From positions 62,001 through 126,000 of the forward strand of contig JAENZN010000007.1 of the NCBI GenBank assembly GCA_016841245.1: 64,000 bases of DNA, written 5' to 3'. The stretch comes from Syntrophomonas sp. (lineage in GTDB: Bacteria; Bacillota; Syntrophomonadia; Syntrophomonadales; Syntrophomonadaceae). Shown here in pieces: positions 3,227 to 30,437 of the stretch. Position 1 is the first letter of the stretch. Every line of letters starts with the position of its first letter. The position numbers were made by a program, and so were the translations under genes. Below the pieces are notes generated by a model. It saw only the letters and a list, made by a program, of their open reading frames with translations, was not told where the DNA came from and searched no databases.

Positions 3227-4084
3227 CTAGACAAATAGTTTAAAAAGTGCCTGGGTACCATCGTCTTCTGCTCCATCAGCTGCCAGTTTTTCGTACAACG
3301 TTTTTGCCAATTCCAGGCCAGGCGTCATCATTCCCATTTTTTGGGCGGTATCTAAAGCAATCGTCATATCTTTAATAAAGTGTTTTACGTAAAATCCCGG
3401 CGCAAAATCACCTGCGATCATTCTTGGCGCCAGATTGCTGAGAGACCAGCTGCCGGCTGCTCCTGATCCGATACTTTTCAAAACAGTTCCGGGGTCCAGT
3501 CCGGCTTTCTGCGCATAGGCCACAGCTTCACAAACCCCGATCATATTGGCAGCAATCGCAATCTGATTGCACATCTTCGTATACTGCCCTGCTCCCGCTT
3601 CCCCTTGCAGCACAATGTTTTTACCCATGGTCTCGAAAACAGGTTTCACCCTTTCAAAAGCTTCCGGGTCACCGCCAGCCATAATGGACAGTCTCGCTTC
3701 TCTCGCACCAACATCTCCTCCTGAAACAGGTGCATCAAGCGCAGATATATTTCTCGCCTTCGCCTGTTCATAGATTTTTTGAGCCAGCAACGGAGAAGAG
3801 GTTGTCATATCAATTAAAACAGAGCCTTCTTGTGCATGGTCAACAATCCCGTTTTCTCCAAAATAAACCTCTTCAACGTCTTTAGGATAACCTACCATGC
3901 TTATAATAACATCTGACGCTGCAGCAACCTGACCTGCAGTGTTCATCCAGACTGCCCCTTTTGCTGTTAATTCAGCTGCTTTGCTTTTCGTGCGGGTATA
4001 GATATTTAACGAATATCCTGCCTTCATCAGATTCGAAGCAATGCTTTTTCCCATTACCCCTAAGCCAATAAATCCTATTTTCAT
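3227..4084 (-). CDS. NAD(P)-dependent beta-hydroxyacid dehydrogenase
   Basis: This 285-residue protein belongs to the 3-hydroxyisobutyrate dehydrogenase / tartronate semialdehyde reductase family, which oxidises beta-hydroxyacids or reduces the semialdehydes with NAD(P). The N-terminal Rossmann motif is IGFIGLGVMGKSIASNL. The substrate-binding signature is LDAPVSGGDVGA, and the catalytic lysine lies in GQYTKMCNQ. The NADP-binding preference cannot be read with certainty; R34 in YTRTKSKA would favour NADP. I start at the ATG 8 nt after AAGGGAAGG; an in-frame GTG three codons upstream is less likely. Length fits the family (about 290). The exact substrate is not known. Confidence 0.85.
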   Translation of the reverse strand: MKIGFIGLGVMGKSIASNLMKAGYSLNIYTRTKSKAAELTAKGAVWMNTAGQVAAASDVIISMVGYPKDVEEVYFGENGIVDHAQEGSVLIDMTTSSPLLAQKIYEQAKARNISALDAPVSGGDVGAREARLSIMAGGDPEAFERVKPVFETMGKNIVLQGEAGAGQYTKMCNQIAIAANMIGVCEAVAYAQKAGLDPGTVLKSIGSGAAGSWSLSNLAPRMIAGDFAPGFYVKHFIKDMTIALDTAQKMGMMTPGLELAKTLYEKLAADGAEDDGTQALFKLFV

Positions 4085-4249
4085 ATTTTGCACCTTCCCT
4101 TGATTGACTACTAGGTTTCGCTCTTTTCAGCAACGATCCGTCTGCCTCTGTCACAAGCATATAATTGCTACTGTCCGGTAAAGAATCAAATTAAGTGTAC
4201 CCCATTATCTGAAAAGCCTTGCTCAGATCGAACTTAAATATTAGAACAC

Positions 4250-4882
4250 TCACTCCATCGGCTTATGCATCTCAATCCAACCGCCCTTTTTCACTTTAGG
4301 TTTTTCCTCGATAATCTTGAACTCCGAAATTCCAGCCTGTATCGCAACGGCTCCAAGCTCCTCGGCTGTAAGCCGGCGATATCCTTCAGGATGGCCGACA
4401 TTTCGCCTGTGGGCTGTTAATCTCCGCCTCATGGTGGAAGGGATATATCGGCCCAATCCACCGCCAACCAGTGCTGTCCCACCTTTTTTCAAGACCCGGT
4501 ATATCTCTTCTGTCCCCTTGACCTTATCCTCCCAGAACCACATTGACCCGCGGCTGATAATAAAATCAGCAAAGTTATCCTCCAGGGGAAGCCCCTGGCA
4601 GATATCTGCCTGGATAAAATGCGTTTCATTATCAATATTGCTGGCAGCAACAACGCTCTTGGCCAGAGCCATGGCTTCTGGATCGATATCTATGTAATAC
4701 ATCTTCATATTGGTAATCTTGGCAATTTCGGTCCCCAAGTGCCCGCTGCCTGCACCGATATCCAGACAAATGCCCTGATCAAGCTGATAATCATCAATAC
4801 ATTGCTGGGCAATCAGAGGGAATACAGGCATCATCGCATCATAGACAAACCTATTTTCATTGAAATCTCTTGGTATTAACAT
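4250..4882 (-). CDS. Class I SAM-dependent methyltransferase
   Basis: The 210-residue product has the Rossmann-type methyltransferase motifs: I at CLDIGAGSGHLG, II around YYIDIDPEAM, post-II at FIQADICQGLPL and motif IV DFIISRGSMWFW. This is the Methyltransf_11/25 type that acts on small molecules. The start is ATG at 4882, preceded by GAGAGGTGATAAAC; a longer upstream frame lacks a ribosome site. The C-terminus carries TMRRRLTAHRRNVGHPEGYRR. The substrate cannot be deduced. Confidence 0.8.
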   Translation of the reverse strand: MLIPRDFNENRFVYDAMMPVFPLIAQQCIDDYQLDQGICLDIGAGSGHLGTEIAKITNMKMYYIDIDPEAMALAKSVVAASNIDNETHFIQADICQGLPLEDNFADFIISRGSMWFWEDKVKGTEEIYRVLKKGGTALVGGGLGRYIPSTMRRRLTAHRRNVGHPEGYRRLTAEELGAVAIQAGISEFKIIEEKPKVKKGGWIEMHKPME

Positions 4883-5419
4883 GTTTATCACCTCTCTGTT
4901 TCTTATGATACTACACTTATATGGACCTTTAAATTTCAAAGGAGTGCCTTTCATTTTTTAGTTCCGTTCCGTTTTTTCAATGATAAATATAGGTTTTATG
5001 GCGTGCAGGCGGTGAGATAAGCAAATTATATTTAAAGATTTTGAAGCTAAAAAATAACAAATTCCTCTGTATATAATATGCAGAGGAATTAAATATCACT
5101 AACAAGGGCCCCTGTGGAGCGGAGCCTGTTATTAGTCTTTTGTAACCGGACAACTTCTGTACGCCCGACTACTTATCTTAAAAACCCTTAATACCAGTCA
5201 AGCAACTTTCTGTACGCTCCCCTGATGGGTTCACAAGAACATCTAAAGTTAAGATAAAATCATGTACCTTATTTGTATATTATATCAGATATAAATTCTT
5301 ATGCAAATCCTAAAATCGCATGCAAATAGGGCATTAGTCTCAATTTATATGTTTCACGAGAGCTTATCTTACATATTCTAACAAATCCTTCCTCCTTCTC
5401 TCTTTGGTATCTTTGACGT
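4883..5419. other. Intergenic, hairpin at 5060..5090
   Basis: No supported gene. A perfect 10-bp inverted repeat (AATTCCTCTG and CAGAGGAATT) encloses an 11-nt A+T loop at 5060..5090. It lacks a T tract on either strand, so it may be an operator or the end of a decayed element. The rest is A+T-rich without clear coding signal. Confidence 0.4.
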
Positions 5420-5535
5420 GGTGTCAAGGGGACGGGGTTGTTGACAACCTACCTAATTGGAGAGGCTTATCGGTATTAATAGAGGCGTAGTCCTGAAAGC
5501 CTAAAGGTTGTCAATAACCCCGTCCCCTTGACACC
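5420..5535 (+). mobile_element. 116-bp MITE-like palindromic element, copy 1
   Basis: The element begins GGTGTCAAGGGGACGGGG and ends with its inverted complement, arms of about 30 bp with one or two mismatches. A second copy lies inverted at 31872..31987. After reorientation the two copies differ at only about two positions over 116 bp, core included. It encodes nothing, so it must be moved in trans if it is mobile. Its border falls at the stop codon of the adjacent GNAT gene: the TGA is formed at the junction. Confidence 0.75.
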
Positions 5536-5985
5536 TCATCTACGTAAGTCTTTTTTCAGATATATCATATCAATAATCTGCTTGCCGCCTTCGATGATAG
5601 GATGGTCATAATTGTCTGTAAAAAAATTCTTAATCCTGTGTGATTGTGTAAAACCGCATTTCTTATAAAAGGGAATTGTAAGCGGACTGTCACCCGTTCC
5701 AACCATCATGGTGTTAAAATTCGATCTATGATAGTTGCAGATATGTACAATCATTTGTTTTCCATATCCTTGTCCTTGATATTTGGGCTCTGTAGCAATA
5801 CTTTTAAGTTCGCACACTTTGCTGCCCTCATCGGTAACAACGCAAATAGTCTTTAAGTCATCATCAAAAAGTGCAAACATTTCTCCGCGGTCTATATATT
5901 TGTCAATCATACTTTCTTGCTCATCGGCAAGCAGCAGCAAGTTTATATATTGCTTTTTGTTTTCTGTTATCTGCTTAATTATCAT
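5536..5985 (-). CDS. GNAT-family N-acetyltransferase
   Basis: This 149-residue protein has the GNAT fold. Beta-4 and motif A read CELKSIATEPKYQGQGYGKQ, where Q/R-x-x-G-x-G/A binds the acetyl-CoA pyrophosphate. Motif B corresponds to PFYKKCGF near the C-terminus. I start at ATG 5985 (MIIKQITEN), 12 nt after AGGAGG; longer starts upstream lack support. The natural stop may have been altered, since the TGA sits at the edge of the MITE and the last residues are DLRR. Acetyl acceptor unknown. Confidence 0.8.
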   Translation of the reverse strand: MIIKQITENKKQYINLLLLADEQESMIDKYIDRGEMFALFDDDLKTICVVTDEGSKVCELKSIATEPKYQGQGYGKQMIVHICNYHRSNFNTMMVGTGDSPLTIPFYKKCGFTQSHRIKNFFTDNYDHPIIEGGKQIIDMIYLKKDLRR

Positions 5986-6162
5986 GCTCCTGATATTCCT
6001 CCTAATATAAATCATAAGAAATTCCACTTTAATCGTTCATATACCTATTATTAGACTACTGAGTAGCTCCAAATATGGATTATGTGATCTTACAAGTGTT
6101 TGATTTTCTTATTATTATCTAATGAGATATGGATTCTGTCGCCGTTATTTGGAATCCTGGCC

Positions 6163-6855
6163 TTATTTTACTTTCAGTGTCCGCAAGTACTCCTTTGCTT
6201 CAATTCCGATTCGATAGCTCTCAATCGCTTTCTGGATAGCTTTATTGTGCGTCCACTTCTCCAAACGCTGCTCCTGAATGTACGGCAAAGCCGCTTCGTA
6301 CTGCTTGGCCAATGCCGTTGCGAAATACCAGGCGATCATCATGTTTACATAATATTCTTCCGACCGGATACACGCCACAAGCTCAAGCATCTCCGGTCGG
6401 AAATTGCCATCGAGATAAAATCTCATCAGCATTCCGATCCCGAAGCGCACCGTATAAATTCGGTCTGACTTCAGCCAGACTTGGATTTTTTCGTAGAGCT
6501 TGGGCAGATGCTTTTTAAATACCTTCGGTGAAATCATATCACAGGTTGCCCAGTTGTCTATATACGGCAGAAACTCGTCAAGGGCGGCAACGACGGCATC
6601 ATAATCCTTTATTGTTTCAATTATAAAGCCGTGCAGGTTATTTTCTTCGAAATACGCGTGCGGCAGAATTTCGAGAAACTCCAAAGCCTCAGGTGTTTTG
6701 GAAAACTCCCGGGCGAGCTTGCGCAAATCCGGCGTGCGGACGCCAATCACGGTTTCCGGGTTCACCGTCGGCTTAAATTTACACGAAAACTCTTTGTATT
6801 TTAAATCTCTTAACTCAAATAACCGGTGCCGAATGTTTTCTTCTATTTCACTCAT
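6163..6855 (-). CDS. DNA alkylation repair protein (AlkD-like HEAT protein)
   Basis: The 230-residue product matches the AlkD/AlkC-type DNA alkylation repair family (PF08713), all-alpha HEAT-like glycosylases that excise alkylated bases. The start MSEIEENIRHRLFELRD, the GVRTPDLRKLAREF segment and the family signature W-x3-D in NWATCDMISP (W102, D106) are present, as is the arginine of the TVRFGIGML helix (R137). These correspond to the catalytic-cleft residues in AlkD. AAAGG lies 8 nt before the ATG. Length is normal. Whether it is a glycosylase or a non-catalytic relative is not shown by sequence alone. Confidence 0.85.
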   Translation of the reverse strand: MSEIEENIRHRLFELRDLKYKEFSCKFKPTVNPETVIGVRTPDLRKLAREFSKTPEALEFLEILPHAYFEENNLHGFIIETIKDYDAVVAALDEFLPYIDNWATCDMISPKVFKKHLPKLYEKIQVWLKSDRIYTVRFGIGMLMRFYLDGNFRPEMLELVACIRSEEYYVNMMIAWYFATALAKQYEAALPYIQEQRLEKWTHNKAIQKAIESYRIGIEAKEYLRTLKVK

Positions 6856-7304
6856 ATTCTTTACCTTTCATCAAATATGGATATATGAAGCCGGTTATGT
6901 CTAACCCCTATTCTCTATTCGATAAGCTCTGCTGTGCTTTTTTGTTTATAATGTGCAATAAATTTTCAATAATATCTGATCCCATTTTAATCAGAACAGA
7001 TCCAGAAGTTATGAATTTCAGAATAGTGTCAACAACCCCGTCAGGCTGTGTGCAAACTATTTTACCGATTTCATCCGTCCCACTTAGGTCTTAATGCTTA
7101 GTGTTTTTAGGGATTGATCTTAGAATAACCCCTGATATTTATAAGGTTTCCTCCACTTCGGTTAATTAACTTGATGATTTTTAGACTTTTCGCACAGTCT
7201 GCCGTCCCCATGACAACTCATCTGTATATCGTTAAACGCAACAATTATTTCTTGAAATTCAAGCCCAAAGAAAAATAACATATGTCATATTTGTTTATTA
7301 TATT
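6856..7304. other. Intergenic with MITE debris
   Basis: No supported gene. Two short stretches resemble the arm of the 116-bp MITE: 7026..7041 (GTCAACAACCCCGTC) and 7202..7221 (CCGTCCCCATGACAACTCAT). Both are in the same orientation, so this is debris of one or two old insertions. A 60-codon frame without start on the minus strand (6908..7090) overlaps it and is not convincing. Confidence 0.4.
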
Positions 7305-7352
7305 CCTCCTTTTGTAATTATATGGTAACACGTTGAAAACATACGTCAATGA
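7305..7352 (-). repeat. Toxin-antitoxin-like 3' module, copy C (promoter part only)
   Basis: Only the block CTCCTTTTGTAATTATATGG plus CGTTGAAAACATACGTCAAT remains. On the minus strand the -35 TTGACG (7344..7349) and -10 TACCAT (7322..7327) survive with a 16-nt spacer. It overlaps the last codons of the lipoprotein gene that ends at 7318. Confidence 0.55.
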
Positions 7353-8439
7353 AGCCATGCGGTTTTGGTAATACCGAAACTACATGCCCCAATTGGAACG
7401 CATAACCGTTTTCAAAAGAAACTTCACTGCTCATGGGACGTATATCACTGTGCAGCACCTGCACATTATTGTCGTCCTCTTGATAAAGCAGAGCAAAAAA
7501 CGTGCCTACCTTGTTTTTCGTTCCCTCGCCAGCAATTTGAGGCCATCCATCCTTGCTTCTAGGGCTGTTGGCGGCCATCACACATTCATCCTGCCCATCA
7601 CTATCGAAATCACCGCGGACACAGTTAGTAAAATTGGGAATAGTATTATCCATGCTTTTTTCTTTGAATAAATCGAGAAGAACCCGAGTACCTTCAAGTG
7701 TAGGATTACTGTCATATGTTACCTTATCCAACCCTGGTTTTATATCACCGTTAGTTACAACATAGTTGGAAGTATCATAAGTTTCCACTTTCCCATCCCG
7801 GGCAAAATAGGCATAAAAATCATATGCAGGAATAGTCAATCCATCCAGCTCTTCGCCGACTTTCAATGGGAGGTTAAATATTCGATACATGGTGTCGCTA
7901 TTACCCTTGAAGTGATAAAATTCACCGTATTTAGAAAATTCCTTCGACACGTCTTCCATCTCAAAGCTGCCGAGACCATATCCTTCAGTCATCCAGATAA
8001 TTTGCGTTGATTCTCTAGCAGGTTCACTTTTTTCATAGATGTAGTATTTTTCAACAGCCAATAAGTCTTTGGCATAAAAGGTTTCTTCGTTTCCTGAACC
8101 GTGTTTATAGCCGCCTGCAGTATCGCACAGGCTATGCCAACCATTGTCGTCAAAACTACCCAAAAAAATACCCTCGATAAAGTAGTACAGCGGTTCTGAT
8201 ATTTCATCGCTCCCAGTTACTATTGCAGTATCCATGTTCGAATCTGGCGTCTCTTTTATTTCATCATTCCCGGACGCTATTTCCGTATCCTCATTGGAAT
8301 GCAGCTCATCAATTTCATCGTTTCTAGTTACTGCTGGTGCATCCCGATTCTTATCAAGAGGTGTACCTGAACATCCAACGAAAGATAGTGTCAAAACCAG
8401 CATACACAAAGCTGCAGTTGTCTTTTTCAAAATGCACAT
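7318..8439 (-). CDS. Putative lipoprotein with NDEI repeats and FG-GAP-like segment
   Basis: The product has about 373 residues. The N-terminus is a lipoprotein signal peptide (TTAALCMLVLTLSFVGC). After it come three imperfect copies of a short acidic repeat: RNDEIDEL, GNDEIKET, GSDEISEP, each preceded by a T-x-I/V-type stretch. Further on, VRGDFDSDGQDECVMA resembles an FG-GAP/EF-hand-like calcium-binding loop. I start at ATG 8439, 11 nt after GGAGAAGG; a GTG four codons upstream is possible. The last residues (GFIDVCFQRVTI) and the stop codon come from repeat copy C, so the original C-terminus was lost. Function unknown. Confidence 0.7.
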   Translation of the reverse strand: MCILKKTTAALCMLVLTLSFVGCSGTPLDKNRDAPAVTRNDEIDELHSNEDTEIASGNDEIKETPDSNMDTAIVTGSDEISEPLYYFIEGIFLGSFDDNGWHSLCDTAGGYKHGSGNEETFYAKDLLAVEKYYIYEKSEPARESTQIIWMTEGYGLGSFEMEDVSKEFSKYGEFYHFKGNSDTMYRIFNLPLKVGEELDGLTIPAYDFYAYFARDGKVETYDTSNYVVTNGDIKPGLDKVTYDSNPTLEGTRVLLDLFKEKSMDNTIPNFTNCVRGDFDSDGQDECVMAANSPRSKDGWPQIAGEGTKNKVGTFFALLYQEDDNNVQVLHSDIRPMSSEVSFENGYAFQLGHVVSVLPKPHGFIDVCFQRVTI

Positions 8440-8795
8440 ATTATTTTTCACCTTCTCCGTTATGTAAAGTTGCTCCCTCTATGGCCAGGTGTTTATAAAT
8501 TCGATTCCTTATTTACTTATATCCCAATACACTTGCACTGCATTAGCAGCAGTTATATTTATTCCTTCGACATAATGTTAAATATTTCCTGCGCAATAGT
8601 TTACATAATACAACATATTTCTGGTTAAGACCAGCATTAATCTATGTCCTTGTTATACACTGCAGCAGTGTGAATAAGCAATGATTTTTTCTGCCGTACT
8701 ATACAATCTGCTAAATGAAATGCAAATTAAAAATCCAAAGGAACTTTCTAATTCAAAGAAGTACTTTTTATTGGTTCTGTTTTTTTTCCGCCAGC
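8440..8795. other. Intergenic, no gene seen
   Basis: The stretch is A+T-rich and contains stops in all frames at short intervals. It leads into the second copy of the 120-bp repeat. No promoter of good quality was identified for the lipoprotein gene on its left. Confidence 0.4.
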
Positions 8796-8915
8796 AGGTC
8801 AAAGTGTGTGTCCGGGAAGCGAATATCGTCCATATGTGTTTCCAAGACACACCTTTTGAGATATTTCTGCAAAAATCTGCTGCACAGATTTCAACTTGGG
8901 CACTGTGATTTTATT
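8796..8915. repeat. Diverged 120-bp repeat, copy 2
   Basis: Same orientation as 1..120. The blocks GTGTGTCC, GAAGCGAATATC, CATATGTGTTTC and CACCTTTTGAGATATTTCT are shared. Identity is clearly below that of the MITE pair, so the duplication is older. Confidence 0.7.
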
Positions 8916-9027
8916 ACGAGTGATAGGATATTGGGTTGAATGTCGAAGTTTTTTTGGCGGTATGGAATCATAATTCAACAGGCGTGTTATTTTCATTCGC
9001 AGTCACTGATAATCAGCCTTCCATCAA

Positions 9028-9513
9028 TTAAAATATTCCGGGTATGAAACGCCAGGGCACCTGCCGCATATAATCCCGGTATTGATCTCCTAATGTACTC
9101 AACAGGAAACGCTCTTCGTTTACCGCCATCATAGGTATCAGCAGAGTAAAGAGAATTGAAGGGATAAAAATCCATATAATCCCCCATGCCAAGGCTATAC
9201 CTAGATATAAAAAAATTAGACCGAGATACATCGGATGACGAATCATGCCGAATGGTCCTGATTGAACAATTGCGTCTATGTTTTTTGATGATTCATGGGC
9301 TTTTTTATGAAATTTATGGCAGTAGATGTGCAGCACCAAACCGGATACCACCAATATCCATCCCAATATAGTTACTGCAGGATGACAGGATATCCTCGGC
9401 CAGGAAAATAATTCACCCAGAATACCGGTAATTATGATAGCCACAAATCCGATAGACATTATTTTATTAGGTTCTATCACTGCGATACGCTGTATAAGAT
9501 TTTGCGGTTTCAT
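9028..9513 (-). CDS. Isoprenylcysteine carboxyl methyltransferase-like membrane protein
   Basis: The 161-residue protein has about four hydrophobic segments and the C-terminal signature of the ICMT/PEMT methyltransferase superfamily: GPFGMIRHPMYLG (R-H-P binds the cofactor region) and later NEERFLLSTLGDQYRDY, where E-E and Y-x-x-Y are conserved. Members methylate lipophilic substrates at the membrane using SAM. AAAGGGG lies 5-6 nt upstream of the ATG. Bacterial members of this size are common and mostly uncharacterised. Substrate unknown. Confidence 0.8.
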   Translation of the reverse strand: MKPQNLIQRIAVIEPNKIMSIGFVAIIITGILGELFSWPRISCHPAVTILGWILVVSGLVLHIYCHKFHKKAHESSKNIDAIVQSGPFGMIRHPMYLGLIFLYLGIALAWGIIWIFIPSILFTLLIPMMAVNEERFLLSTLGDQYRDYMRQVPWRFIPGIF

Positions 9514-17925: not shown

Positions 17926-18240
17926 CTATACTCCGGTATTTTTTCCGATGGTTTTTAGATTTTTTTGATAGGCTTTCCAGCCCGGACACCATTTGGTATG
18001 CCAGGACCACAGCCTGCTCCGGAAGGAACTCTTATGCTTCTCGGCATATGCTCTTAACTTGCAGTTCTCGCACTTGGACTCCATTTTTATCATCTCCTGA
18101 TTCTTGGCCTTTAAAATCAATGAACCAATCGGCGTAACATTTGGCTGCCCCATATTATTAACGGAACCTATCATCGAAGTCTGTTTTAATTCATCATAAT
18201 ATTTAACGATTTTTTCCCATGTGTCTGTGTTAATTTTCAT
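17926..18240 (-). CDS. PNPOx-like N-terminus with a cysteine-rich tail
   Basis: The 104-residue product starts MKINTDTWEKIVKYYDELKQ and continues with GSVNNMGQPNVTPIGSLIL, typical of the first strands of the pyridoxamine-phosphate-oxidase/flavin-reductase fold. After residue 55 it changes to a basic segment with KCENCKLRAYAEKH and LWSWHTKWCPGWKAYQK. The central FMN-binding strands of a full PNPOx protein (about 140 residues) are absent. It may be an internally deleted gene or a chimeric small protein. GGAAGG lies 9 nt upstream of the chosen ATG. It is the first gene behind the shared XRE operator. Confidence 0.6.
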   Translation of the reverse strand: MKINTDTWEKIVKYYDELKQTSMIGSVNNMGQPNVTPIGSLILKAKNQEMIKMESKCENCKLRAYAEKHKSSFRSRLWSWHTKWCPGWKAYQKNLKTIGKNTGV

Positions 18241-18331
18241 GATCAGCAACCTTCCTTTCTGGCAAATAGAGGTTAGATATATCATGCAGCTGGTTCTTTC
18301 TCACTTGTACAAAAATGTGCTTGAATGCAAT

Positions 18332-22201: not shown

Positions 22202-24124
22202 CTATTTCATCCTCCCCCCGGAGCCAAGTCTCTGACCATCCATTCCGCCCATACCACCGCCGCCGCCGGTAACTTCAGAGCCGTTGTCAGAAATGCCGGT
22301 ACTGGTACTGGAAATTGTAATATCGCTTAAAACCGTACCGCCGGAATATGTGCCCCCGGCATAAAATCCGTCATTAACTTCTCCGCTGCATGTGCCGCCA
22401 GAGCTGAGGATATATGTCTCTCCCTGCTCCAAGTCAGAACTGCTGATAACGATGCACTGATAATCTTTGGCTGGAGCAAAGGTCAGGATAGCGTTCCCTT
22501 TCTCATCACTCAAGTTTACCAGGGTTCCAACTGCCTGGGCAGAGGAATAATATACCATCAGGCAGTTTTGAGTCGAGGTTTCCTGGGGAGCCTGTGCCAT
22601 TCCTGAACTGCCGGCAATTGCCAGGGTACCTCCGGTGACTTCACAGGTGCCATTGTAGTCCAGAGGACCGTTACCGTTATTGGTAGGACCGCTCACCAGT
22701 ACCGTACCGCCATCAAAGTAAAGTGCACCATTGGAATCGATGCCGTCACCATAAGCATCAACATATAAATAGCCGCCAGTTATACGAATATAATAATCTT
22801 CATCGCTGCTGAAGCTGTTTTCTCCCGGTCTGCCTCCCATGGACGAACCATCATTTCCGCCACCTGCGTTTAATCCATCGTCACTGGCTATCAGATGTAC
22901 TGTTCCGCCATTCATAGTGATATTGGCACTCTCCAGGCCTTCATAACACTGGCTGATATCGATCGTTCCTCCGTCCACTGTCAGGGAGGAATCAGTATGA
23001 ACCCCATCATCTCCGGATGAAATCGTAAGTTCTCCTGCTTCGATCAGGATATCGCCATTGGAGTGAATCGCATCATCTGAAGAATCGATATTTATTACTC
23101 CGCCATTGATCAGGATACTGCTGCCTGCTTTGATTCCCTTGGCGGAAGCAGTTTCCTCTTCAGAGGTGTTGGTGGAATCTGGTTTTACCCATTGACCCCA
23201 GTCTGAACGGGGATCGCCGCTGCTGTCAGCGCTGGTGGCACTGCCGCCTCCGGTGACCAGATTGATTTCCCCATCGCTGACCTGCAGGGCGGTTTCTGCC
23301 TGAATTGCGTCATTACCCGCAGTGATAACGAAAACTCCGCCATCGAAAGAAATCCAGCCTTTATCGGTATCTTCGTCATTGTTAGATTGGAGACCATCTC
23401 CACCTGCTTCAATATTAAAGGTACCGCCATTGATAGCTATGGAATCCCGGCCGCGCAATGCATCGTTAACCGCCGTAACGGATATTTCTCCACCAGTAAT
23501 AACCAGGTCAGCCTTGCTCCCAATCCCGTTGTTGAAATTGGCGTTGACCGTCAGGGAACCTGAACCATTGAGGGTGAGGTCATCCTTTCCGAAAATTACA
23601 GCGTTCGGTTCATCCTCTCCTTCGGCACAAGAATACTCAATCCCATCCTCCAGGGTATTGCTGCTGCCTTCCGCCAATGTCACTATGGTCTTTTCAGATT
23701 GCTGCGCATAAATGGGCGCACTATCTGAACAATATATCTGAACGCCATTTAGAACCAGCCTGACTGTATCGTCCTTTCCTGCGTTCACGATGATCTGACC
23801 ATCGTTTAAAGTGCCCTGCAATACATAAGTACCTGCACTGGTAATAGTAAGAACGCTTCCGGAAGCTGCTGCTCCATCACCGTTTACTGTTATAGAATCA
23901 CCGTCCAGAGTAATCATATTCGCAGATGAAGCATCCCAGCTGCTGTCCATATCTTCAGTACTGTATTCGACTGTAATCTCAGCCACCCCTGAAGAAACCA
24001 CCGAGGAAACCAGTTCTGAAGTACTGTCGTTACTGTCAGCACTGGTTTGGGTGCCGCAGCCAACAATACTGCTCAATAACAGCATTCCTATAATAATTGA
24101 GGATAATAATTTTGACTTTCTCAT
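22202..24124 (-). CDS. Beta-helix carbohydrate-binding lipoprotein (Cthe_2159-like)
   Basis: The 640-residue product has a lipoprotein signal (IIIGMLLLSSIVGCG). The body is built of parallel beta-helix coils with the repeated G-x-I-x-I-x-x-x-D-D-A/G pattern: ISSGDDGVHTDSSLTVDGG, IDSSDDAIHSNGD, IEAGGDGLQSNNDEDTD. This corresponds to the Cthe_2159-type carbohydrate-binding domain, whose founding member binds polygalacturonate with calcium. The C-terminus is a low-complexity Gly/Met tail (GGGGGMGGMDGQRLGSGG). It is the last gene of a VTC/DUF4956/beta-helix operon. A paralogue lies divergently at 26005. It is likely displayed on the cell surface. Confidence 0.85.
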   Translation of the reverse strand: MRKSKLLSSIIIGMLLLSSIVGCGTQTSADSNDSTSELVSSVVSSGVAEITVEYSTEDMDSSWDASSANMITLDGDSITVNGDGAAASGSVLTITSAGTYVLQGTLNDGQIIVNAGKDDTVRLVLNGVQIYCSDSAPIYAQQSEKTIVTLAEGSSNTLEDGIEYSCAEGEDEPNAVIFGKDDLTLNGSGSLTVNANFNNGIGSKADLVITGGEISVTAVNDALRGRDSIAINGGTFNIEAGGDGLQSNNDEDTDKGWISFDGGVFVITAGNDAIQAETALQVSDGEINLVTGGGSATSADSSGDPRSDWGQWVKPDSTNTSEEETASAKGIKAGSSILINGGVINIDSSDDAIHSNGDILIEAGELTISSGDDGVHTDSSLTVDGGTIDISQCYEGLESANITMNGGTVHLIASDDGLNAGGGNDGSSMGGRPGENSFSSDEDYYIRITGGYLYVDAYGDGIDSNGALYFDGGTVLVSGPTNNGNGPLDYNGTCEVTGGTLAIAGSSGMAQAPQETSTQNCLMVYYSSAQAVGTLVNLSDEKGNAILTFAPAKDYQCIVISSSDLEQGETYILSSGGTCSGEVNDGFYAGGTYSGGTVLSDITISSTSTGISDNGSEVTGGGGGMGGMDGQRLGSGGRMK

Positions 24125-24149
24125 TTTAACCTTATTCCTTTCGCTAAAT

Positions 24150-24827
24150 TTATAATTCGCCGCGGCTGCTACGGACTTTGCCGCAGATAATGTTCAAATT
24201 TCCATTACGGCAGCGAAGATCATCAAGAAAGCTCTTTTCAATTTCTGAACCTTTCAAAGTTATGTGATAGTAAAGTTCATACAGACTGCCCATATTAGTT
24301 GTTTTTACCCGAATCAATTCTGTTCCCTTAGTGTATTTTGCAAACAGATCATCAAATAAACCAGTATAATCCAGGTTTTCAGGGATCGTTATTTTGAGTT
24401 CTTTTTCAATGCTTTCCTGTTCCCCAAAGTTAATGGTATTTAAGAGCAGTGTCATTAATCCCACAACTATCAGGAAAACAAAAGCAATGGCCAGATATCC
24501 CATCCCAGTTGCGAGCCCAACCGCCATGGCAAAAAAGATGCTGCCGATTTCCTTGGCACTGCCCGGTATGGAGCGGAAACGAACCAGACTAAAAGCACCC
24601 ATTACTGCGACTCCAGCCCCCACGTTGCCGTTTACAATCATAATTACCAATTGAACCATGGCTGGAAGCAGGGCCAGAGTTACGACAAAGTTTTTACTAT
24701 ATGTATTGCGATACATATAGATTACAGCGCAGCCCAGGCCTAATATGATGGAAGCCAGCGTGCAAATCAAAAGATACTCGATACTTATAGCTGTAGTTGG
24801 TATTATGCTTATAATGCTGTCAAGCAC
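24150..24827 (-). CDS. DUF4956 membrane protein
   Basis: The 225-residue protein has four membrane segments in its first 130 residues and a cytoplasmic C-terminal domain. The family signature GAFSLVRFRSIPGSAKEI is complete and likely forms a conserved loop. The last 80 residues (LDYTGLFDDLFAKY to CGKVRSSRGEL) look like an ACT/ferredoxin-like fold. The start is GTG 24827, 6 nt after GGAGGAG, and overlaps the VTC gene by 8 nt, so the two are coupled. DUF4956 is regularly found beside VTC-domain genes. A role in export or assembly of an anionic polymer is an inference. Confidence 0.85.
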   Translation of the reverse strand: MLDSIISIIPTTAISIEYLLICTLASIILGLGCAVIYMYRNTYSKNFVVTLALLPAMVQLVIMIVNGNVGAGVAVMGAFSLVRFRSIPGSAKEIGSIFFAMAVGLATGMGYLAIAFVFLIVVGLMTLLLNTINFGEQESIEKELKITIPENLDYTGLFDDLFAKYTKGTELIRVKTTNMGSLYELYYHITLKGSEIEKSFLDDLRCRNGNLNIICGKVRSSRGEL

Positions 24828-25545
24828 TGATATCTCCTCCCTTTTTATAAACTTGATGGATTAGATGTTCTTTGTAACAGGTTCCATATTTGGAATAAGA
24901 GTTTGGGAATATTTCCATCTGGTTCAAAATACCACTAAGCCATAAAGGCATGGAACCGGGAATCTTTATCTCCATCAGGACCTTTTGCGAATCAAGCAGG
25001 GGATTACCCCAGGTACCTTTTGACAAATCCAATTGAGATTGGCGAAAGCGTATATTGCGGTCAAAGGTGATACGTAAATTTTCATCCTCCTTACCGAACA
25101 GAGCCAGTCTGTCATAGGCAATAAATACTTTTGGAACCGGGTGATACCTCATCATAAACCAATCAATTTCACGCAGGATCTGGCTGGATACACCCGGCTG
25201 TTCACCATGCAGGAGATAATTGTCAGCTTTCTCCAGCGGAAGCTGTATCCTCCTCTTGTAAACAACACCAGTGAATTTCTTTTTCAGTTCTACAAAAACT
25301 TTATCGCCAGATTTAGGAATTCCATAGCTGCGCAGACGAAGTTTTTCCTTGTAGACTGGCTTTTCTATAGATGCCCTGATAAGATCATAGCTATCAGTAT
25401 CAAAATATATGTTACCTATAGTGTGCCAGCCAAACCTGTCCTGGTTCATATAAGCTTGTAAAGCCAGCAGCAGAGTATGATGCTGCCGCTCGGTCAGCAT
25501 ATATTTTTTTTCATAACGTTTAAATACGTTTTGATAAGCTGCCAT
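24820..25545 (-). CDS. VTC-domain protein (polyphosphate polymerase-like)
   Basis: The 241-residue protein corresponds to the VTC domain, a triphosphate-tunnel fold that in yeast Vtc4 makes polyphosphate from ATP. The tunnel residues are visible: FKRYEKKYML at the start, YFDTDSYDLIRAS, KLRLRSYG, FVELKKKFTGVVYKRR, RITFDRNIRF and LMEIKIPG. These basic and acidic residues line the tunnel in the family. The start is ATG 25545, 8 nt after GGAG; a GTG three codons upstream is possible. Being followed by DUF4956 and a beta-helix lipoprotein matches a widespread conserved cluster. Polymerase activity has not been shown here. Confidence 0.85.
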   Translation of the reverse strand: MAAYQNVFKRYEKKYMLTERQHHTLLLALQAYMNQDRFGWHTIGNIYFDTDSYDLIRASIEKPVYKEKLRLRSYGIPKSGDKVFVELKKKFTGVVYKRRIQLPLEKADNYLLHGEQPGVSSQILREIDWFMMRYHPVPKVFIAYDRLALFGKEDENLRITFDRNIRFRQSQLDLSKGTWGNPLLDSQKVLMEIKIPGSMPLWLSGILNQMEIFPNSYSKYGTCYKEHLIHQVYKKGGDISA

Positions 25546-26004
25546 GTGAAACACTCCATTTCATTTATTATTTGAACTGTTGTTATAATAAAGCCTATTA
25601 CTTAAATTAATCTGAAAAATATTTAAAGAAAAGACAACCATTCAAAAAAACCCTGACCCGTAATTCAGGCTAAAGCAGAGCAAACCTTTATCGAGAGGGT
25701 ATTGATAGAAACCCCAAAATGAAAATGGGTTTTTTCTTGATAATTGGGTTTTGTTTTTTTGGTGATGAATTATGGCCGGAAACAAATGAGAGATTATTAA
25801 CAGTCGTTCATGGATGGCATCATCAGAACTACTAAACTAAAGTTATGTTTGTGCAGTTACCATAAAACAGCATCCGGAAAACGATTACCCCCCCAACAGC
25901 GGATATTATTTCCCCTGCAAATTTAAGGGTTATTTAAGGTTGACGCGGTATTATGATATTGAACAATCGTCAAATAAACACTTTGAAAAGGAGTAGGATA
26001 TTAA
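25546..26004. other. Divergent intergenic region of the VTC/beta-helix cluster
   Basis: This region separates two oppositely transcribed units. It contains a hairpin with T tract (AACCCC...GGGTTTTTTC, about 25710..25738), a further run of T-rich sequence, and a candidate activator site at 25922..25957 listed separately. A -10-like TATTAT/TATAAC on the minus strand near 25585 may serve the VTC operon. Confidence 0.45.
25922..25957 (+). promoter_or_regulatory. Candidate OmpR-type direct repeat ahead of beta-helix gene
   Basis: TTTAAGG occurs at 25922..25928 and 25933..25939, spaced 11 bp. A -10-like TATGAT lies at 25952..25957. The layout parallels 11488..11519, where TAAGATT repeats at the same spacing precede a -10. 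No response regulator gene is adjacent. Confidence 0.45.
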
Positions 26005-27252
26005 ATGAAAAAGTTTTTACCGGCTGTGATAGCTTTATTACTTGTGTTTACATTTGCGGGATGTTCTGCGATGACGGAGGACAGCAGCGGAACGGCAGAT
26101 ACGCAGATTTCGAATACTGAGACCGCAGATACCCAGGCTTCAAACGTCGGAGCTGCAGCAAGCAGTGTCTTGTCCACCGGCGATTCACTCCTTAACACCT
26201 CAGATATGTTTACGGATCGGGATCTGGAGCAGGAAGCTGATTTAACAGCTGCGGTATCCTCAGAATTGGTAAGCGGTGAAGATATCACAATTGAAGAAGA
26301 AGGTGTATACCTACTGAGTGGTGAGGCTGAAAATGTCACAGTTATTGTTGCTGCGGATGATGAAGCAAAAGTGCAGCTTGTGCTGGACGATGTATCGATT
26401 ATCAATGAAAATACCCCGGCAATTTATGTGAAATCAGCGGATAAAGTTTTTGTGACAACCACTGACAGCGATAACTATATGGAAGTCACGGGTGCGTATG
26501 CAGCAGACGGAGAAACTAATTTAGATGCGGTTATTTTCTCAAAAGATGACCTGGTTTTAAACGGAACCGGCATACTGGAAATTGTGTCTAATGAAGGCAA
26601 TGGCATTACCTCGAAAGACGATCTGAAGCTTACCGGGGGCACTTACGACATTACCTCAGCTGAAGACGGTTTAGAGGCAAATGATTCGATTCGCATATAT
26701 AGCGGAGATATAACCATTAACAGCGGTAAAGATGCCCTGCACAGTGAAAATGATGATGACGCATCACTCGGACATATATATATCTATGGAGGTACCTTGA
26801 ATATAACCGCAGCAGATGATGCAGTTCGCGGAACCAGCGTGGTTCAGATTGACGGAGGCACCATTAATATCGAAACTTGTACGGAAGGCATCGAAGGAAC
26901 CTATGTCCAGATTAACGGCGGAGAGATCGATATATATGCCACAGATGACGGGATCAATGCTACAGCGAAAAATTCAAGCTATAGTGTCGTTATTGAAGTG
27001 AATGGCGGAACGATTTATGTAAAAATGGGCAGCGGCGATACGGACGCATTTGATTCAAACGGGAATATATATATCAACGGAGGAACCATTGATATTGAAG
27101 CAAGGTCTGCATTCGATTCAAATGGCACAGCTCAGCTGAATGGTGGAGAAGTGACGGTAAACGGTGAAACGATAACGAGTATTACGCAGTCGCAAATGGG
27201 AGGACACCAGATGGATGGTCAACCTCAAATGGGCGGGGGAAAACGCAGATAG
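26005..27252 (+). CDS. Beta-helix carbohydrate-binding lipoprotein, second paralogue
   Basis: The 415-residue product has a lipoprotein signal (IALLLVFTFAGCS) and the same beta-helix repeat type as the protein encoded at 22202: SAEDGLEANDSIRIYSGD, INSGKDALHSENDDD, ITAADDAVRGTSVVQIDGG, IYATDDGINATAKN. It is shorter and lacks the extra C-terminal domain of its paralogue, but has a similar Gln/Met/Gly tail (QMGGHQMDGQPQMGGGKRR). AAAAGGAG lies 11-12 nt before the ATG. The gene is divergent from the VTC operon, so both may respond to one regulator. Likely a surface polysaccharide-binding protein. Confidence 0.85.
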   Translation: MKKFLPAVIALLLVFTFAGCSAMTEDSSGTADTQISNTETADTQASNVGAAASSVLSTGDSLLNTSDMFTDRDLEQEADLTAAVSSELVSGEDITIEEEGVYLLSGEAENVTVIVAADDEAKVQLVLDDVSIINENTPAIYVKSADKVFVTTTDSDNYMEVTGAYAADGETNLDAVIFSKDDLVLNGTGILEIVSNEGNGITSKDDLKLTGGTYDITSAEDGLEANDSIRIYSGDITINSGKDALHSENDDDASLGHIYIYGGTLNITAADDAVRGTSVVQIDGGTINIETCTEGIEGTYVQINGGEIDIYATDDGINATAKNSSYSVVIEVNGGTIYVKMGSGDTDAFDSNGNIYINGGTIDIEARSAFDSNGTAQLNGGEVTVNGETITSITQSQMGGHQMDGQPQMGGGKRR

Positions 27253-27634: not shown

Positions 27635-28240
27635 CTACAATTTATCAGGCAATTTATTATAAAGCATCTGCCAATCCGAATTCTGCTTTAATGCAGTCAT
27701 GGTATTGGCATTTGGTTCTGTATAAATAATGGGATAATCTATTTCATCATATTCCTTCCTTATCGGGAAAGCCAATTTCTCCTCGTCAATAGAAAATTGA
27801 GAATTGACCCCTGCTTTATTCCCACGGGCATCTAATCTTATCCAACGCTGCAGCGTTTTCAGATATACCGCATTTAAAGCATGTATGCAATAGCCTGTAT
27901 CAGGCGTATCGCCCCTGGTAAGCCTTTGATAACAAAACCCGGTGGGAATGCCCTTACTTCTTAATATGGCTGCTAATAAGTTTGACTTTGCATAGCAAAT
28001 TCCTTCTGCAAAGAAAAGAACTTCTGATGCTTTACATGTCACACGGGAGCCTTGTATGTCAAAAGAATGGGCAATATTATCACGGACATATTCAAATGAA
28101 GATTTGATCATTTCAATTTCGTTAAATGAACCAGAGACTATTTCACTTACTTTCGTTCTGGTTAATGGGTGATTGTAATCAACCACATCCAATTCACGTA
28201 AATAGTCTTTAAGATAACGAGATTCACAAATTAATTTCAT
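27635..28240 (-). CDS. Transglutaminase-like domain protein
   Basis: The protein has about 201 residues from MKLICESRYLKDYLR. The transglutaminase-core triad is present: Cys in FFAEGICYAKSNLLAAILRS, His in CIHALNAVYL and Asp in IRLDARGNKAGV. Proteins of this class are cysteine proteases or transamidases, often acting on peptides. GGGGGGAAGG stands just ahead of the ATG. A longer frame upstream reads through the gene fragment at 28287..28398 and is not credible. No signal peptide is seen, so it is probably cytoplasmic. Confidence 0.8.
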   Translation of the reverse strand: MKLICESRYLKDYLRELDVVDYNHPLTRTKVSEIVSGSFNEIEMIKSSFEYVRDNIAHSFDIQGSRVTCKASEVLFFAEGICYAKSNLLAAILRSKGIPTGFCYQRLTRGDTPDTGYCIHALNAVYLKTLQRWIRLDARGNKAGVNSQFSIDEEKLAFPIRKEYDEIDYPIIYTEPNANTMTALKQNSDWQMLYNKLPDKL

Positions 28241-28286
28241 GCCTTCCCCCCCAGCGCAATAATACACATTCCATTCCCTATAGTAT

Positions 28287-28398
28287 TTATTTGGAACGGA
28301 CTGTAAAAGTCTCTTCCTGATCATTCCATCTGACGGTAAAGGCCATTTTGGGGTCAGCATGGGGAATTGCTCCTGTGCCTCCTGACGAACCCAGAATC
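28287..28398 (-). pseudogene. Duplicated 3' fragment of the gene at 37520
   Basis: About 110 bp match the end of the gene at 37520..38356: both encode LGSSGGTGAIP then FTVRWNDQEETF. Here the fragment ends with VRSK and a natural TAA at 28287..28289, whereas the longer gene ends in sequence derived from the MITE. This copy probably preserves the ancestral C-terminus. It lacks a start and all the rest. Confidence 0.7.
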
Positions 28399-28422
28399 CC
28401 CATGAGCTGCTGCTGCGCAGTT

Positions 28423-30162
28423 TTATTTTATATTGTTTTTAATCCAATAAACGCTGATCATGTCCGGGAAATAGCTGCCGTAATAGCCGGCATTAGCCTG
28501 TATATTATCCATAAGCTTGACCATATGGCTGTCTTCCAGGTTCATCAGCCAGAGGTCACCCAGGTCGATATAGTCCAGCCTTTGCATAAGCAGGTATTGG
28601 CCGTCCGGTGATAAGGATAACGGATAATCAGCCTGTTCATTGCCAGGTTCGCTCAGGCTCTGCACCTGCTCATCCCTGCTGCAGAATATCTGCTGCCCCG
28701 GGACTTGTACTTCTTGATGCCGTCCTTCTTCCAGCCAGGCTTCACTTTCCTGACCGCGGCTGAAATATAGTGTGTTGCTATTTGCGTCCCAGATAGGCTT
28801 GTTATCTACCTGGCTCGCTTCGCCCAGGTCTTTGATATTTAGTCCGTTTGCATCCACCTGTACCAGTTCCAGATGTTTGTTGGTACTGGCCATGCGGCCA
28901 GATCCGATTATGGCCGCCAGTTTCTCACTGTCCGCGGACCATTGCACCCATTCCCGGTATCCCAAAGCCACCCCCAGATTGATCGAGAGTGACTTTTCCT
29001 GTAGATCAATTATCTGCAGACTCATACCGTCTGAATTCAAGGATGCTGAGTTAATCCCCAGAAAACAGGCCAGATAACGACCATCCGGGGACAGCTTGAG
29101 ACCATTGATGTCTCGGATGTACAATCCGTCTTGATAACTTCCCGCTAAATCTGCCGGCAGGGCCAACAGGCAGCTGACCTTCCCCTGTAAATCGACTCGG
29201 TCCAGTTCAGGCAGATGGTCTTCATCGTGCACCCGGCTCACCACCAGGCTCTGACCGTCCGGGAACCAGGCCAAACCCAAACCCAGGGGCTGATCCGCAG
29301 GCTGCAAGAGCTCATGATGCTGCCACTTCCCGTTTTCCTGAACGGCTATCCTCAGACTCCAGTCGACGGAATCCTCCTGCTTTCTTATTAAAGCCTGATA
29401 TGCAATGGTGTTTTCCGTCGGAGACCAGATCGGGGAACCATATGTAATCGGCAGCACATCCAGGCATTGGGGGTTCTGTCCATCAGAAGATACCACCCAC
29501 AGAATCACATCCTCCGGGTACCTGTCATCACTTGATCTCTGTAAATAGGCCAGCCATTTTCCGTCATGGGACCAGCCAATTATCTGCTCCATATTGCGGC
29601 TGGGTACCAACGATGGCTGGGCCTCCGGTTCACTCGCATCCAGCAGCCATAACTGCTCATCCTGGATGAATGCCACCCGCAGCGGCAAACTGCTGGGGCT
29701 AAGATTTTCTGGAATAGTCGGGGTTGGTACCGGAGCGGTGATATAAATGGCTCTCTCATTTTCGTCCCATCTGACGCTGGCTCCCAGGGATTCAAAGAGA
29801 TCGCGGCCAGGTACGGCGATCCCGTACCGCCATAACTGCAACCCGCACCGCCAGGTTTTGTTCTGTCCATCTATAACGCAGGTATTGCTCCCCACCGTAC
29901 TGCTCAACTCCCTGCCGTTGAGGGCAAACCAGGCCTGATTATCTCGTACATCCAGGCGCAGCCCCGGCAGACCTTGGATCAGCACCAGCGGTACCATGCC
30001 TACCCCAGTATCGGGATCAATATAGGCAGTGCTGCCCTGGAAATCACCGTTGCAGTATACTCTTATGCCTCCGCTTTCGTTACCGGCGCCTTGAACCGGT
30101 ATCACCGGAGACAGGATCAGGATGGAGAGTATAAAAGAGACCAGCAGTATAATCTTTTTCAT
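28423..30162 (-). CDS. Secreted stalk-domain and beta-propeller protein
   Basis: Starting at MKKIILLVSFILSILIL the product has about 579 residues, with a signal peptide, then a copper-amine-oxidase-type stalk region (YIDPDTGVGMVPLVLIQG, GIAVPGRDLFESLGASVRWD), a Pro-rich linker and a TolB/WD40-like propeller (IIGWSHDGKWLAYLQ, GSPIWSPTENTIAYQ, LAWFPDGQSLVVS, LKLSPDGRYLACF, DNKPIWDANSNTLYFS, LSLSPDGQYLLMQ). About six blades are visible. The chosen ATG lacks a clear ribosome site; AAGGAG stands farther upstream before an ATG at 30246, but that would put 28 residues before the signal peptide. Likely exported and wall-associated. Function unknown. Confidence 0.75.
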   Translation of the reverse strand: MKKIILLVSFILSILILSPVIPVQGAGNESGGIRVYCNGDFQGSTAYIDPDTGVGMVPLVLIQGLPGLRLDVRDNQAWFALNGRELSSTVGSNTCVIDGQNKTWRCGLQLWRYGIAVPGRDLFESLGASVRWDENERAIYITAPVPTPTIPENLSPSSLPLRVAFIQDEQLWLLDASEPEAQPSLVPSRNMEQIIGWSHDGKWLAYLQRSSDDRYPEDVILWVVSSDGQNPQCLDVLPITYGSPIWSPTENTIAYQALIRKQEDSVDWSLRIAVQENGKWQHHELLQPADQPLGLGLAWFPDGQSLVVSRVHDEDHLPELDRVDLQGKVSCLLALPADLAGSYQDGLYIRDINGLKLSPDGRYLACFLGINSASLNSDGMSLQIIDLQEKSLSINLGVALGYREWVQWSADSEKLAAIIGSGRMASTNKHLELVQVDANGLNIKDLGEASQVDNKPIWDANSNTLYFSRGQESEAWLEEGRHQEVQVPGQQIFCSRDEQVQSLSEPGNEQADYPLSLSPDGQYLLMQRLDYIDLGDLWLMNLEDSHMVKLMDNIQANAGYYGSYFPDMISVYWIKNNIK

Positions 30163-30437
30163 AAGAACGCCGGAATAGCAGCACACGGTATATTTTGAGA
30201 TAACACTTCCTCGGATATTTCTATAATTATAATCATGATGGTTCATTCTTATTAATAATCTCCTTCCCCGGCTACAGCCTTTTCCATTATATACGCTTAC
30301 CGATGAACTATCTTACGTTGTTTCTGCCGATATGCTATTCCACCAGGGCATACATACACGAATCAAAAATTACTCCGTTTTTGCATATACTGTTTTTCCA
30401 GCGTGAAATCCATGTTTTTTTACCTCACAGCTTTCAA
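30163..30437. other. Intergenic, no gene seen
   Basis: The stretch holds the upstream region of the propeller-protein gene, including AAGGAG near 30265 and an alternative start. No repeat or structured element was recognised. Confidence 0.35.

Follow-up and report, generated by a model that had tools for sequence, protein, structure and literature searches.

A conserved clostridial gene module that places a VTC-domain protein and a DUF4956 membrane protein beside Cthe_2159 beta-helix lipoproteins

What might a tunnel-fold, polymerase-like protein, a membrane protein and two surface lipoproteins accomplish side by side? The question is raised by a 64,000-nucleotide stretch of a Syntrophomonas sp. 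genome (GenBank assembly GCA_016841245.1, contig JAENZN010000007.1, positions 62,001 to 126,000), which we refer to as the window and within which the window positions below are counted. An earlier note on this DNA had described a cluster encoding a VTC-domain protein, a DUF4956 protein and two beta-helix lipoproteins, and had suggested that the set makes or exports an anionic polymer and binds a surface polysaccharide. As we will describe below, the arrangement occurs far beyond chance, and we have next to no doubt that the module is real and conserved.

All four genes are indeed present in the window, each with a Pfam match well over the curated cut-off, while no NCBIfam model scores over threshold for any of the four proteins. 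Three of them share the minus strand, with VTC first, DUF4956 next and the long lipoprotein last. The first gene of this operon (24820..25545) encodes a soluble VTC-domain protein of 241 amino acids (PF09359, 141 bits) with its ATG at 25545, the listed open reading frame running to 25554. It is followed by the gene for a 225-amino-acid DUF4956 membrane protein (24150..24827; PF16316, 57.8 bits), the GTG start of which lies inside the end of VTC; since the two genes overlap by 8 bases and a ribosome-binding site, AGGAG, precedes that start within VTC, their translation is probably coupled. The operon then continues into the gene for a right-handed beta-helix lipoprotein of the Cthe_2159 family (22202..24124; 640 amino acids, PF14262, 337.7 bits). 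A shorter Cthe_2159 lipoprotein of 415 amino acids (26005..27252, plus strand, 265 bits) is transcribed divergently, as the earlier note had it, and stands 459 bases upstream of the VTC operon, across the intergenic region 25546..26004.

Seeded with the window VTC protein, a scan covering 84,980 genomes gave the 80 nearest loci, among which some of those lacking partner genes are cut by contig ends. Profiles of the window genes place DUF4956 beside VTC in 74 of the 80 and Cthe_2159 in 60, and an OmpR-type regulator/kinase pair is close by in 37. Over a set of 98 VTC loci, the core genes overlap or almost touch in 87 of 92 VTC–DUF4956 pairs, and Cthe_2159 occurs downstream in the same direction (42 loci), divergently upstream (19) or upstream in the same direction (6). 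Because the 80 nearest loci were selected by their similarity to the window, we turned as well to 199 genomes sampled evenly from the phylum, of which 26 have VTC, 18 have Cthe_2159 and 15 have both. The genome-level association yields a Fisher p of 4e-13 (1.6e-11 with the own genus excluded, and about 1e-6 when collapsed to the 93 families taken), values that are indicative, as relatedness is uncorrected by a tree. The two genes are adjacent in 8 of the 15 genomes that have both, and 31 of the sample's 32 VTC loci have DUF4956 alongside, the remaining locus starting at a contig end. Co-occurrence outside the own genome, on which the earlier note had made its proposal depend, is therefore strong, both at the nearest loci and in the phylum, where 15 of the 18 genomes with Cthe_2159 also have VTC.

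The extracytoplasmic partner is not always the same. Among the 32 phylum-sample VTC loci, 7 have Cthe_2159 only, 19 have a CotH kinase-like gene only, one has both and 5 have neither. The own genome itself contains a second VTC–DUF4956 pair, at locus L010 (C37:185000-201000; positions 4077-9470), which is followed by a CotH kinase-like gene, absent beside the window pair, and preceded by a divergent regulator/kinase pair. In a maximum-likelihood tree of 98 VTC proteins, the Cthe_2159-type and CotH-type proteins occupy largely separate branches (4 label changes, versus 14 in shuffles), the exception being a long-branch CotH row, L028, that sits in the other group. At one locus (L159, 1307-6798) VTC, DUF4956, CotH and Cthe_2159 are consecutive, joining both forms of the module. 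Since either CotH or Cthe_2159 is found at the same place, and since L159 unites them, the extracytoplasmic partner appears to be exchangeable around a fixed VTC–DUF4956 core. Other recurring neighbours of the 98 loci are the response regulator/kinase pair and a metallo-beta-lactamase-fold (MBL-fold) protein (PF00753); in the Oscillospiraceae-type loci L054, L072, L091, L104, L109 and L121, the latter has a lipoprotein-like start and directly follows DUF4956. We also note that a leucine-rich-repeat and lamin-tail protein adjoins VTC in L176 (4719-5879), with similar open reading frames in L174 and L179 and with Cthe_2159 elsewhere in the genome.

Sets of the CotH type have been described before. 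Next to pel genes stand cotH and the genes for a polyphosphate polymerase, for DUF4956 and for DUF4832, and in streptococci, clostridia and bifidobacteria those for CotH, DUF4956 and the VTC-like polymerase form an uninterrupted run with pel (PMC7112168). The Clostridium perfringens locus NELoc-2 likewise lists VTC and CotH genes, with a 'tubulin/FtsZ GTPase' gene of 222-226 amino acids after each VTC (PMC2879425); by place and length, these genes are probably DUF4956. The window set resembles those sets in that a VTC-type polymerase adjoins DUF4956 together with a gene for an extracytoplasmic-type partner, and differs in that the partners are Cthe_2159 lipoproteins rather than CotH, in that the immediate flanks, when scanned, held no pel genes, and in that its VTC branches apart from the CotH-type VTC found elsewhere in the own genome. 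It is a variant of the published VTC–DUF4956–CotH gene set, and the Cthe_2159 partner appears to be new. We found no paper joining VTC/DUF4956 with Cthe_2159 in the open literature searched (most subscription papers and all preprints lay outside that search), so that the earlier note's view of the link as undescribed holds for Cthe_2159 but must give way for the core, whose sets with CotH were already in print.

The company of pel genes also invites a different explanation, namely that VTC and DUF4956 serve envelope polysaccharide assembly, through phosphate-containing precursors or a phosphate modification, and that the lipoproteins bind the resulting exopolysaccharide or wall polymer. Besides the contiguity with pel (PMC7112168), this would accommodate the chitin-synthase-like glycosyltransferase that shares the C. 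perfringens locus (PMC2879425) and the binding of cellulose and polygalacturonate by Cthe_2159 (PMC6712302). However, the flanks of the window genes are without any glycosyltransferase or polysaccharide synthase, and no such gene recurs often near the 98 VTC loci; we judge this explanation rather unlikely.

The alternative that we prefer, a polyphosphate-making module, begins with the VTC protein itself. Its predicted structure (predicted local distance difference test, pLDDT, 94) has yeast Vtc4 as best fold match (3g3r: Z 19.9, root-mean-square deviation 3.0 A, 222 aligned residues, 23% identity); Vtc2 and Vtc3 score about equally, and tunnel phosphatases and cyclases fall behind, at Z 15.1 or less, so that the triphosphate-tunnel fold lies nearest to the Vtc subunits. 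The tunnel, whose loss on modelling the earlier note had named as fatal to its idea, thus survives. Across 69 relatives, 17 positions are invariant (R10, E12, K14, Y47, K68, R70, R72, Y74, E86, K88, K97, R146, R158, D162, K194, S218 and K219), and up to R158 these align, in a profile alignment to 3g3q, with Vtc4 R196, T198, K200, R264, R266, E279, K281, K294, R361 and R373, among others. In particular, K14, R70, R72, K88, K97, R146 and R158, invariant or nearly so in the relatives, correspond to K200, R264, R266, K281, K294, R361 and R373. The HMMER alignment to Vtc4 stops at position 168, and later residues were placed by motif against the Vtc4 sequence; on that footing, we take E192 (invariant or nearly so, like the others), K194, S218 and K219 to be the counterparts of Vtc4 E426, K428, S457 and K458. 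The window protein accordingly shares with Vtc4 (PF09359; PDB 3g3q/3g3r, 8i6v) the tunnel fold, the order of the catalytic basic residues, the metal-site glutamate E192 and the S218-K219 pair. The earlier note's statement that the basic tunnel residues are kept is borne out for the equivalents of K200, R264, R266, K281, K294, R361, R373, S457 and K458, but fails for those of R253 and K455, which are S59 (by alignment) and S216 (by motif spacing).

Hydrolytic tunnel enzymes bind a second metal through three glutamates that are missing from Vtc4 (PMC4641920). At the corresponding positions the window VTC has R10, E12 and K194, that is, a glutamate at one of three, and therefore lacks the three-glutamate site of the tunnel tripolyphosphatases (CYTH/TTM; E4, E6 and E162 in ygiF). 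With R10 and K194 in place of two of the metal-site glutamates, the residue pattern favours a polymerase over a hydrolase, E12 being a reason for caution. In addition, a profile search of the genome, which is 99.99% complete, found neither of the polyphosphate kinases PPK1 (PF02503) and PPK2 (PF03976), so that VTC could be its polyphosphate polymerase.

Several observations pull the other way and should be weighed together. Two Vtc4 residues, R253 and K455, are replaced, although these are individual positions outside the family definition. E12, where Vtc4 has T198, equals one hydrolase metal-site glutamate, as in tunnel phosphatases. Both the SPX and the DUF202 parts of the yeast complex are absent: the chain consists of the VTC domain only, and its partner DUF4956 is not DUF202, for which reason we file it as a VTC-domain protein and not as a VTC complex. 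The literature searched reports no activity for any bacterial VTC of such type. At most VTC loci in the phylum the partner is CotH, not Cthe_2159, so that the lipoprotein is not obligatory. Finally, in the phylum sample PPK1 is commoner in genomes with VTC (9/26) than in those without (20/173; p 0.005), on which ground we reject a general replacement of PPK1 by VTC. Since PPK1 is not rarer alongside it, VTC would be no plain replacement and probably has a separate, envelope-linked role. Taking fold, residues and these objections together, we lean modestly towards the view that the window VTC makes polyphosphate.

The membrane partner, DUF4956, is modelled (pLDDT 84) with five transmembrane helices followed by a C-terminal ACT-like (ferredoxin-like) domain of beta-alpha-beta-beta-alpha-beta topology, resembling ACT domains and the C-terminal part of MgtC. 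This is the layout of the MgtC/SapB family (PF02308), and the profile similarity extends across the last transmembrane helices and the ACT-like domain (hhalign alignment: probability 89%, E 2.5e-6, 141 columns); PF02308 is also the second commonest Pfam match among DUF4956 relatives (45/63, best E 7e-5). The window protein itself stays under the PF02308 cut-off (9.1 bits versus 31.4), has few MgtC signature residues in common and differs further in adjoining VTC. Its ACT-like domain matches the MgtC C-terminal domain (2lqj) at Z 8.4, level with other ACT-like folds; this domain filled the list of matches from the PDB fold search, among which none was to the transmembrane part. Profiles and model together thus suggest a remote relative of MgtC. 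Arg82-Phe83-Arg84 are invariant, and basic residues lie in the loops following helices 1 and 3; by the positive-inside rule, both this motif and the ACT-like domain are predicted to lie on the cytoplasmic face of the membrane, the side that VTC is on. That DUF4956 moves or gates polyphosphate is plausible, if a little short of probable.

These same features could be read as those of a sensing system, in which VTC is a tunnel phosphatase or a nucleotide/triphosphate sensor that, with the MgtC-like membrane protein, steers surface adhesins via the two-component system often encoded nearby. E12 would suit such a system, as would a possibly ligand-binding ACT-like domain and the OmpR-type regulator and kinase at 37 of the 80 nearest loci. 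On the other hand, basic residues (R10, K194) take two of the three site-2 glutamate positions, the fold is clearly nearer to Vtc2/3/4 than to phosphatases, and no regulator pair stands beside the window genes, and we think this possibility improbable.

We turn now to the lipoproteins. Both carry a lipobox (IVGC in the long protein, FAGC in the short), both exceed the full-length PF14262 cut-off of 25.8 (338 and 265 bits), and both are strongly acidic, with 88 aspartate/glutamate versus 22 lysine/arginine residues in the long one and 70 versus 18 in the short one. The long protein matches C. thermocellum Cthe_2159 (PF14262; PDB 4peu, 4phb) at E 4e-50 against 4peu, placing both in the same beta-helix family; it differs in its longer C-terminal half with a Gly/Met-rich tail, and the window differs in having two copies tied to VTC/DUF4956. 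The nearest relatives of the short protein are short Cthe_2159 genes that other Clostridia (L068, L104, L065, L107) likewise carry upstream of VTC, making the short divergent lipoprotein a recurring part of the module; L104 and L107 have both the long and the short kind, like the window. A third Cthe_2159 lipoprotein of the own genome (L011, 7868-9823, on C21; 651 amino acids) is an orphan with no VTC nearby.

The C. thermocellum protein, the only one for which such binding is reported, attaches to cellulose and to polygalacturonic acid (PMC6712302), and its ligand recognition requires Ca2+ (PMC8746771). Given the acidity of both window lipoproteins, a polyanion would need to be held through cations. 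That they bind what the neighbouring enzyme makes is a guess, and binding of polyphosphate by the lipoproteins is doubtful. Conversely, they could be adhesins for plant fibre whose only tie to a phosphate-storage pair is a shared operon, with no common pathway: the protein that founded the family has plant polymers as ligands (PMC6712302), many of the carriers are Clostridia of the rumen and gut, and the own genome has its orphan copy. Against this, Cthe_2159 without VTC is rare (3 of 18 phylum-sample genomes, two of the three cases partial or weak) and its adjacency to VTC recurs in three different arrangements, so such a coincidental pairing seems to us quite unlikely.

Returning to the polyphosphate module, we can sketch how its parts might cooperate. 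The yeast VTC complex synthesizes polyphosphate in the cytosol and translocates it (PMC4641920). By analogy of fold and residues, the cytoplasmic VTC protein would use ATP to build inorganic polyphosphate, or a phosphate chain like it, within its beta-tunnel; DUF4956 would dock it at the membrane and pass or gate the chain outward; and the lipid-anchored Cthe_2159 proteins would bind an anionic polymer outside through Ca2+, as their polygalacturonate-binding relative suggests, the candidates being the exported chain or an acidic polysaccharide of the cell wall or environment. In the sister form, a CotH kinase-like protein would take the place of Cthe_2159. We hold this combined scheme of synthesis, outward passage and Ca2+-mediated retention tentatively, as the best single account but one that may well be wrong in part. 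A bolder version, in which a VTC/MgtC-like machine builds surface polyphosphate that the beta-helix lipoproteins hold by Ca2+, and extracytoplasmic CotH in the sister form uses the exported chain as phosphate donor where ATP is absent, is a long shot.

The surroundings of the module add the following. The divergent intergenic region contains a hairpin-like sequence at window positions 25710-25745, AAACCCCAAAATGAAAATGGGTTTTTT, that belongs to no Rfam family; indeed, no Rfam family matches anywhere in 25546..26004, even at a permissive threshold, and the riboswitch (c-di-GMP or other, GEMM-like by eye) considered upstream of the second lipoprotein is rejected on that ground. A promoter and terminator scan of the region returned matches no better than shuffles or expectation. 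Adjoining the cluster, positions 27635-30246 encode a transglutaminase-core protein and a copper-amine-oxidase-N/beta-propeller protein (third-position GC of the latter, 0.59), neither being among the recurring neighbours at other loci, and a short open reading frame at 17926-18285 resembles, by eye, a truncated or frameshifted flavin-binding-type protein. The Cthe_2159 family occurs in only 3 of 40 genomes of the class, a rarity compatible with transfer; third-position GC of the cluster matches that of neighbouring genes, and a foreign origin is thus unsupported by composition.

If the proposed scheme is right, a widespread clostridial gene set without a described function would gain a role, in which a eukaryote-type polymerase makes polyphosphate that is linked to the surface of the cell, in organisms whose genomes may be without the usual polyphosphate kinases. 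Cthe_2159 proteins would acquire a partner pathway besides plant-fibre binding, and DUF4956 would be connected to the MgtC family, itself of unsettled function.

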